NCBI GenBank assembly: GCA_000613065.1
Contig: CBZS010000009.1
Span: 1-32,143, forward strand
Source of the DNA: Richelia intracellularis
GTDB taxonomy: Bacteria; Cyanobacteriota; Cyanobacteriia; Cyanobacteriales; Nostocaceae
Direction of reading: 5' to 3'
DNA: 32,143 nt
The first letter of the stretch is position 1. Every line of letters starts with the position of its first letter. Made by a program: the position numbers and the translations under genes. Shown here one piece after another: positions 898 through 24,050 of the stretch. The notes beneath the pieces were generated by a model. It ran no database searches, was not told the DNA's origin, and saw only the letters and a list, made by a program, of their open reading frames with translations.

Positions 898-1551
898 ATG
901 TTCCGACAAACTGCTTTTGGCATTGCTTTGAGTACGCTTGTCCTTGGCAGTGGATTAACGACTATTCCTGTGCCGGGTCACACTTCTACAAACAAAGGCG
1001 TTGCTGAATCAGGGGATGATTCCACTAAATTTTCAACGATTTCTCAATGGTTTCGAACGCTAATTCATCCCGCACTTATGCAACGCCCAAACAAAAATAG
1101 CGATCCCAAACCCAATTCTACTGTCTCCCACTTATTTGCCAAATCGACTAATTTCCATGCCATTACCATAGAAAAGTCAGTTTTTGAGCAAATTAATCGC
1201 TATCGCGTTCAGCGAGGGTTGCAAAAACTGACCTTAAATAGAAAAATCTCTCGGCAGGCAAGATATCATAGTCAAAACATGGCTTTAGAAAAAGTGCCTT
1301 TTAGTCACCAGGGATTCAAGCAAAGGGTGAGCGTAATTCCCATACCCTACAATAGTGCAGCAGAAAATGTTGCTTATAATCAAGGCTACCAAGATCCCGC
1401 AGCCCAAGCTATGGAGGGTTGGCTCAATAGTCGTGGACATTTAAAAAACATTCAAGGTAATTTTAATTTAACTGGTATTGGTGTTGCTATTAATGATCGT
1501 GGGCAAGTTTATATCACACAACTTTTTTTGCGGACTCAGCGCACGAAGTAG
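898..1551 (+). CDS. Secreted CAP-domain (SCP/PR1-like) protein carrying an in-frame repeat element
   Basis: A 217-residue protein. Residues 1-30 look like a signal or membrane-anchor sequence. The CAP domain fills about residues 92-213, with the typical N-terminal INRYRVQRGLQKLTLN helix, a SHQGF histidine region, AENVAYN, WLNSRGHLKNI with the second conserved histidine, and GIGVAI. Cyanobacterial CAP proteins of this type are extracytoplasmic with no settled biochemical role. Residues 34-64 are not family sequence: they are translated from an inverted-repeat element at 997-1088 that also occurs outside genes at 2295-2386. The insertion sits in the linker between signal and CAP domain, where it should be tolerated. 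A terminator-like hairpin follows the gene. Confidence 0.85.
   Translation: MFRQTAFGIALSTLVLGSGLTTIPVPGHTSTNKGVAESGDDSTKFSTISQWFRTLIHPALMQRPNKNSDPKPNSTVSHLFAKSTNFHAITIEKSVFEQINRYRVQRGLQKLTLNRKISRQARYHSQNMALEKVPFSHQGFKQRVSVIPIPYNSAAENVAYNQGYQDPAAQAMEGWLNSRGHLKNIQGNFNLTGIGVAINDRGQVYITQLFLRTQRTK
997..1088 (+). repeat. ~92-bp inverted-repeat (MITE-like) element, copy 1, inside coding sequence
   Basis: The element starts GGCGTTGCTGAATCAGGGG and ends GCACTTATGCAACGCCC; ends are imperfect inverted repeats sharing GGCGTTGC and GGATGA. It is flanked by AAACAAA on both sides, a plausible 7-bp target duplication, so the whole insertion is 99 bp, exactly 33 codons. It reads open through the CAP gene. 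It differs from the copy at 2295-2386 at roughly eight positions. Confidence 0.88.
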
Positions 1552-2294: not shown

Positions 2295-2386
2295 GGCGTT
2301 GCTGAATCAGGGGATGATTTCACTAAATTTTCAACGATTGATCAATAGTGTCAAAGGCTAATTCATCCCGCACTTATGCAACGCCC
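2295..2386 (+). repeat. ~92-bp inverted-repeat (MITE-like) element, copy 2, intergenic
   Basis: Same ends and orientation as copy 1 (GGCGTTGCTGAATCAG ... TTATGCAACGCCC), flanked by A-runs on both sides that could be a target duplication. It carries no gene. It is the intergenic counterpart that shows the CAP-gene segment is a mobile repeat. Confidence 0.9.
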
Positions 2387-23007: not shown

Positions 23008-23496
23008 ATGCGAATAGGAAATGAACTCTGGCAAGGATATTTTGGTTACTGGCAAAACCGATTTATTCACCATAATATTTTGACTATTGGATACACCGCC
23101 TGGGATGGTTACATGAATGTAGGTAAGGGATGGGATGGTTACATGAATGTAGGTAAGGGAATGGTAGTTTGCGATGTTGTCGATGCAATCCCTCTCTTCA
23201 TAGATTGGAGTGTTGATGCGGTAACCTTCAATCAAGCATTCGTTCCTCAAGGGCAAGTAGTTTCGTATCTGCAAGCAATGGAGGTGAAGAAATATGTGGT
23301 AAGCGCACTGTATAAAGCGATCGCCACTTATGATCCCACCCAAGCAATAGTTATTCTGATTGTCGGTAACAGTACGGTAGATATCAACCTGCTACAAAAT
23401 CTAGGTATTCCCCTTGCTGAATGTTACAAGCAGGTACAGCAACGTCGGGTAGAATTTCAGCCTGCTCTAACTACTGTACCAAGGAGGGACTTATGA
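23008..23496 (+). CDS. Uncharacterised protein, first of a coupled paralogous pair
   Basis: A 162-residue protein of no family I recognise. It is related to the next gene over most of its length: IHHNILTIGYTAWDGY, the AFVPQGQVVSYLQAM region, ATYDPTQAIVILIVGNSTVDINLLQNLGIPLAECYKQV and a VEFQPA end all have counterparts. A perfect 30-bp tandem duplication adds WDGYMNVGKG a second time. No signal peptide or membrane segment is seen. The stop overlaps the next start as ATGA, implying coupled translation and a joint function. Confidence 0.6.
   Translation: MRIGNELWQGYFGYWQNRFIHHNILTIGYTAWDGYMNVGKGWDGYMNVGKGMVVCDVVDAIPLFIDWSVDAVTFNQAFVPQGQVVSYLQAMEVKKYVVSALYKAIATYDPTQAIVILIVGNSTVDINLLQNLGIPLAECYKQVQQRRVEFQPALTTVPRRDL
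23101..23160 (+). repeat. Perfect 30-bp tandem duplication inside a gene
   Basis: TGGGATGGTTACATGAATGT plus AGGTAAGGGA occurs twice with no mismatch at 23101-23130 and 23131-23160. It is frame-neutral and repeats ten residues. The paralogous neighbour has a single copy of the corresponding segment. Confidence 0.97.
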
Positions 23497-24050
23497 GTGA
23501 ATCTCCTAATACTCTGGACTGGCAGCAAGACTTTATAGCCACAAATTTATTAGCGATCGGTTACAATGCCTGGGTTGGGTATTCAAGCGGTGAACGCGGT
23601 GCGACCATTTGCAGTACTGATTCCCCTGCAATGCGGATTGCAGGGGAAACTTTCAAAAGCTATTTTGTACCCCGTTCTCGTTTACCCCCATTTTTGAATG
23701 TCTGGTTAGCAACTCCCGACACAGTTATTTTACGTCATCACTTTATGAATACCCATATTTTGGAAGCCGCAAATACCTATAATCCCGCAACTCAAGCCTT
23801 ACTATTACTGGAATCTTGCCACCAAACGACCTTCTTCTACTTAAAAAATTTGGGTTGCTGAATCAGGGGATGAATTAGCGTTTGAAACCATTGATAAATC
23901 GTTGAAAATGTAGTGAAATCATCCCCTGATTCAGCAACCCAAAAAAATTTACCCCTTACCCCACCCCAATGTTACGAACAGGTTTGCAAAGAGTGGACAG
24001 AATTTCAACCACAATCTACTCAATTATTGAAACAAAAACAATATGATTGA
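23493..24050 (+). pseudogene. Second paralogue of the pair, interrupted by a MITE-like element
   Basis: Starts at ATG 23493 after a strong AAGGAGGGAC and overlaps the upstream stop. The intact frame runs from MSESPNTLDWQQDF to FYLKNLG and then hits TGA at 23858-23860 supplied by the inserted element. Deleting 99 bases (element plus one target copy) restores FYLKNLPLTPPQCYEQVCKEWTEFQPQ and a stop at 24048. This restored tail aligns with the first paralogue (LQNLGIPLAECYKQV ... VEFQPA). As it stands the protein would lack about 35 C-terminal residues and may or may not work. Confidence 0.75.
23851..23941 (-). repeat. ~91-bp inverted-repeat (MITE-like) element, copy 3
   Basis: The ends TGGGTTGCTGAATCAGGGGA and TCCCCTGATTCAGCAACCCA are perfect inverted repeats. 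The core is the reverse complement of copies 1 and 2 (TGGTTTCAAACGCTAATTCATC read on the minus strand). An 8-9-bp target duplication AAAAAATT(T) flanks it at 23843-23850 and 23942-23949. It carries no gene. Confidence 0.92.

Follow-up and report, generated by a model that had tools for sequence, protein, structure and literature searches.

A CAP (cysteine-rich secretory protein family) gene of the cyanobacterium Richelia intracellularis carries a short mobile repeat within its reading frame, and the question it raises is whether mobile DNA has here become part of a protein while leaving the gene in working order. The gene (positions 898-1551, plus strand) lies in the window, the whole stretch of 32,143 nucleotides that was analysed, which is one of 857 contigs of a 5.49-Mb genome. 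It encodes 217 residues with the insert and 184 without. The PF00188 profile matches the 217-residue product with an E-value of 1.4e-13 over residues 97-210 (profile positions 2-117 of 117), the full-length CAP domain scores 52.1 bits against a curated cut-off of 21.1, and the PDB holds a relative, 4ifa (E 8.7e-6).

The insert and its empty site

An earlier note, made from the letters alone, had described a 92-bp inverted-repeat element with a 7-bp target copy inside this gene. The element does lie within the open reading frame, and the sum of 99 bp, or 33 codons, was right, but its division is 91 + 8. The MITE copy occupies 997-1087 on the plus strand in the A-to-B orientation, runs from GGC to GCC, and differs at 2 of 91 bases from the consensus of 132 copies. 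It is flanked by an 8-bp target duplication, CAAACAAA, whose left copy (989-996) and right copy (1088-1095) agree at 8 of 8 positions. Because GGC and GCC are the conserved termini in 145 sampled copies, and the base after GCC is unconstrained there (A.30, C.26, G.27, T.17), C1088 was assigned to the target copy rather than to the MITE. The element reaches from base 1 of codon 34 to base 1 of codon 64, agreeing with the residues 34-64 that had been named, for a net gain of 33 residues; the frame is open and continuous through it, as had been claimed, and its single open frame reads GVAESGDDSTKFSTISQWFRTLIHPALMQR. The two differences in 91 bases and the perfect duplication indicate that this copy is young.

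The note had proposed an alignment of orthologues as a check, which was carried out. When 60 relatives were searched with the CAP protein, the orthologues matched residues 1-35 and residues 66 onward, with nothing between. In a protein alignment 30 of 30 CAP orthologues (177-196 residues long) lack exactly these 33 residues and are conserved on both sides, so that no orthologue shares them, and no frameshift was found. Aligning codons against the five nearest sequences gave a gap of exactly 33. A further alignment took in 28 CAP orthologues whose public genomes have names, Calothrix rhizosoleniae SC01 among them, and places the host in the Nostocaceae near that species. The literature mentions three Richelia genomes (PMC12596568). 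In a same-genus genome, G001, the neighbourhood is syntenic from the ABC-transporter ATPase side through CAP to the exonuclease gene, and a blastn comparison with the window gave blocks at 1-996 and 1136-2268, the first ending one base before the MITE. This genome thus shows the empty site in synteny, and the insertion probably postdates the split from the sequenced sister lineage.

A second copy, also seen by the earlier note, lies downstream between the exonuclease gene and an M20 peptidase gene (2295-2385, plus strand), with flanks matching at 7 of 8 positions and 5 of 91 bases off the consensus; together the two copies account for a 112-nt direct repeat of 90% identity (987-1098 and 2285-2396). 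With another copy 1.3 kb off, hundreds more in the genome and an assembly of 857 contigs, one might suspect that a repeat copy was misjoined into the CAP gene. We consider such an artefact extremely unlikely, as the duplication CAAACAAA is perfect and private to the CAP site, the sister genome matches both flanks at a single syntenic locus, and the copy has substitutions of its own.

A MITE family with IS1-type ends

One 20-nt end of the MITE has 527 matches in the 5.49-Mb genome at up to 2 mismatches, and its reversed control has 0; the copy number is several hundred. We surveyed 1.30 Mb of contigs including the window, mostly picked for holding matches, so that the shares given here are estimates. 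Among the 184 two-ended copies recovered, 179 are exactly 91 bp long, and the 8-bp duplication is perfect in 76 and matches at 7 of 8 positions in 35 more (111 with at least 7 of 8). For the first 145 copies the corresponding counts were 57 and 31, against at most 3 perfect matches when control flanks that were shifted or of other length were taken from the same copies, and the per-base flank match at 8 bp was 74% versus 28-41% at other lengths or shifts. Insertion targets are rich in A+T (77% versus 61%). The A-to-B consensus (132 copies) is GGCGTTGCTGAATCAGGGGATGATTTCACTAAATTTTCAACGATTTCTCAATGGTTTCAAACGCTAATTCATCCCGCACTTATGCAACGCC, with ends GGCGTTGC...GCAACGCC and imperfect terminal inverted repeats of about 23 bp; the median copy departs from it at 3 sites, and the element has no transposase reading frame, its longest open frame being about 30 codons. 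Symmetrical copies of the same 91-bp length also occur, 23 with two A ends and 24 with two B ends, which suggests exchange between MITE halves.

The host genome further contains elements of about 750 bp with ends GGCGTTGCATAA..GGGATGAAT and 8-bp duplications, perfect in one and 7 of 8 in three. Their reading frame matches the IS1 transposase profile PF03400 (E 5e-19), and their ends, GGCGTTGCATAATAGAGGGATGAAT and GGCGTTGCATATTTGCGGGATGAAT, are close to the MITE B end, GGCGTTGCATAAGTGCGGGATGAAT. The MITE thus has in common with the IS1 family the 8-bp duplication and a closely matching terminal stretch of about 25 bp; lacking a transposase frame, it is like the family in its ends. Because ends and duplication length are shared, we look to these elements for the supply of transposase, and the comparison suggests that the MITE was probably moved in trans by it. 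By every feature tested (terminal inverted repeats, fixed duplication, copy number, a matching autonomous element, mobility) the repeat is a MITE.

In several of the 750-bp copies an upstream frame of about 60 codons is followed by one of about 145 codons in another frame. Two frames of this kind are known from IS1, and the copies concerned (L114 7145-7893, L117 5405-6159 and L110 5418-6169) are possibly still active through frameshifting as in IS1. A further candidate for a full insertion sequence, L112 2107-3694, was rejected: it consists of two MITE pieces around a gene broken by several stops, and illustrates how genes decay in this host.

Another cyanobacterial MITE, Nezha, is reportedly longer than 91 bp, at about 134 bp. 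For Nezha (Zhou et al. 2008), ISNpu3-like elements have been put forward as the source of mobility (PMC3049150), and by this description it resembles the present MITE in belonging to the Nostocaceae and in its proposed trans mobilisation by an insertion sequence with matching ends.

We hold it highly probable that an IS1-type MITE, moved in trans, entered codons 31-33 of the CAP gene after the split from the sister lineage and added 33 tolerated codons in a linker. A 91-bp element mobilised by an IS1-family transposase would have inserted there with duplication of its 8-bp target, landing in the sole stop-free one of six combinations of orientation and phase. Because 91 + 8 is a multiple of three and the landing frame has no stop, the gene would have gained its 33 codons between signal sequence and CAP domain and survived. 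Passive tolerance, rather than selection, most likely accounts for the added peptide.

Reading frames and in-frame insertions

The family is not confined to this genome. A translated search found it in 84 of 218 Nostocaceae genomes and 31 of 56 genera, and of 27 checked copies whose 8-bp duplication could be read, 26 were 91 bp long, a share biased by a search that favours full-length frames. Two of these genomes, G189 (21 matches) and G010 (10 matches), have expansions of their own; that in G189, with near-identical copies and perfect duplications, is probably recent.

Such constancy of the 91 + 8 bp across genera, together with the fact that one of the six frames of the asymmetric copies is open in 103 of 137, would fit a specialised protein-inserting element, selected to stay open and a multiple of three in length, as has been proposed for the Rickettsia palindromic elements (RPEs). 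The other five frames, however, are nearly always stopped, and transposition itself may determine the length. Moreover, the unique variants in the open frame (101 N : 27 S : 8 stop) are what the same substitution spectrum predicts under neutrality (100.5 N : 27.7 S : 7.9 stop). Substitutions in this frame are neutral, and the frame is therefore not kept as code, which largely refutes selection for protein insertion and leaves it very unlikely.

The distribution of copies argues in the same direction. In the survey of host contigs, 25 copies lie within reading frames of at least 120 codons, and 23 of them bring a stop, over various frames and both strands; the two that are open in the gene's frame are those in the CAP gene and in a sortilin-like protein gene. 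Allowing for a single suitable combination of orientation and phase out of six, with the frame open three quarters of the time, we estimate the chance expectation at about 3 of 25, and there is no excess of in-frame copies over chance among the 25. The MITE is not specialised for protein insertion.

The sortilin-like protein (host contig C395, L061 5139-7925) has 928 residues with Sortilin-Vps10 and 3-keto-disaccharide hydrolase domains, and its MITE sits in frame just past a signal-like N-terminus, with a duplication matching at 7 of 8 positions. An orthologue in G095 (81% identical) lacks the insert and a few neighbouring residues; a candidate orthologue in G024 was set aside, having only the signal region in common. 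In another Nostocaceae genome, G139, a 1110-residue NACHT protein holds a diverged in-frame copy, also with a 7 of 8 duplication, and a homologue in G053 (49% identical) is without it. In-frame insertion is thus found in three unrelated genes. Five further candidates were not clean in-frame insertions, because the MITE lay upstream of the likely start or at the end of the frame, or, in G189, was 92 bp long and shifted the frame: the 5' extension of a BlaI-like gene (L071), the N-terminal fusion L086, the C-terminal tail L264, the 587-residue frame of G189 and the 682-residue frame of G076. A still broader reading is that the family keeps a frame-neutral footprint of 91 + 8 = 99 bp throughout the Nostocaceae, with recurrent low-damage inserts of 33 residues, and that neutrality of frame is favoured for survival in genes; we regard this as quite unlikely.

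The event in the CAP gene is real and clean, and it is of a rare kind that is already known: in-frame insertion into protein genes is established for the RPEs (PMC10969869; PMC3733652), and a 2024 review considers in-frame mobile insertion into proteins conceivable in other prokaryotes (PMC10969869). Set against the RPEs by description rather than by sequence, the MITE is like them in its features, being short inverted-repeat mobile DNA, read through by an open frame, that has repeatedly entered unrelated protein genes in frame with the host protein apparently kept. RPEs belong to another host phylum and are about 150 bp long, and open reading frames hold about half of the RPEs in the first reports (PMC10969869; PMC3733652), whereas the MITE is 91 bp long with IS1-type ends and an 8-bp duplication, has a frame that evolves neutrally, and lies mostly outside genes or breaks them; its 2 in-frame cases, out of 25 copies inside genes and 184 sampled, fall short of an RPE-like share. 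Our literature search on cyanobacterial repeats inserted in frame, or on MITEs of IS1 type in this phylum, returned no earlier report, and as far as that search shows, the link of the MITE to IS1-type elements, the frame-neutral footprint and the null test are new.

Outside Rickettsia, the locus offers a bacterial example in which the states before and after mobile DNA turned into protein sequence can both be clearly seen. Since the MITE family occurs widely and has a footprint divisible by three, one can count across a bacterial family how often inserts of this sort appear, persist and disappear, and the neutral substitutions and chance-level in-frame share provide a null model for claims that selfish DNA makes proteins.

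The CAP gene with its insert

Several lines of evidence bear on whether the CAP gene still works, as had been claimed. Its reading frame and domain are intact, and the residues invariant in 29 sequences are all present. Its dN/dS against five relatives is 0.18-0.24, similar to the values between the relatives themselves, and both G001 and G024 show conservation of its 5' region. An AlphaFold2 model gives pLDDT mostly above 90 for the CAP domain and below 50 for residues 8-73, which include the insert; the insert is thus probably an unstructured linker between signal sequence and CAP domain, in a region that appears poorly conserved among the orthologues. This agrees with the linker position given in the earlier note, of which the putative signal sequence is judged from a conserved hydrophobic stretch at the N-terminus. 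Likewise, its view of a mobile repeat adding protein sequence is borne out by the empty site and the open frame, and translation of the insert would be expected from that frame and from selection on the gene. We infer that the protein is still secreted with its insert and that the insert brings no benefit.

The gene might instead be an incipient pseudogene, in which the insert impairs export or expression through an altered N-terminal linker and a hairpin 99 nt past the start, stops having not yet gathered. The copy is only 2 of 91 bases off the consensus and therefore little time has passed, and as the copy is young the purifying selection measured on the gene may predate the insertion. As RNA the insert is predicted to form a hairpin of -25.8 kcal/mol (z -3.05), which could slow expression; moreover, the host genome has many elements inside genes, and 23 of the 25 gene-interior copies bring a stop. 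Against this stand the intact frame with its invariant residues, a dN/dS within the relatives' range and the placement of the insert in a variable linker, and we think such decay unlikely.

The opposite alternative, that the 33 residues are favoured as a useful longer linker or as surface of a secreted protein, draws on the fact that both changes from the consensus inside the insert alter the peptide and on a second secreted protein, the sortilin-like one, which carries the insert in a similar position. Selection cannot be read from as few as two changes, however, the insert is predicted to be unstructured, and in-frame cases are no commoner than chance, making exaptation highly improbable. 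Returning to the tolerated MITE insertion, we also compared it with the developmentally excised elements of heterocyst-forming cyanobacteria, which are likewise DNA inside genes in the same order (PMC4874684). Those are removed during heterocyst differentiation (PMC4874684), whereas the CAP element, at 91 bp and without a recombinase gene, stays in frame, and a programmed excision element was accordingly rejected.

Elsewhere in the window, a third, diverged copy of the MITE (23851-23941, plus strand), first detected as an inverted repeat match at 23849-23943, is symmetrical with two A ends and has a perfect 8-bp duplication, AAAAAATT. The reading frame that it entered is truncated, with a stop 8 nt inside the MITE. 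Two overlapping frames at 23008-23861 (162 and 146 residues, in different frames, the second being the one shortened by this copy) gave no Pfam match and may represent one decaying gene. Within the first of them (23008-23496), a perfect 30-bp tandem duplication at 23101-23160 doubles WDGYMNVGKG in frame.
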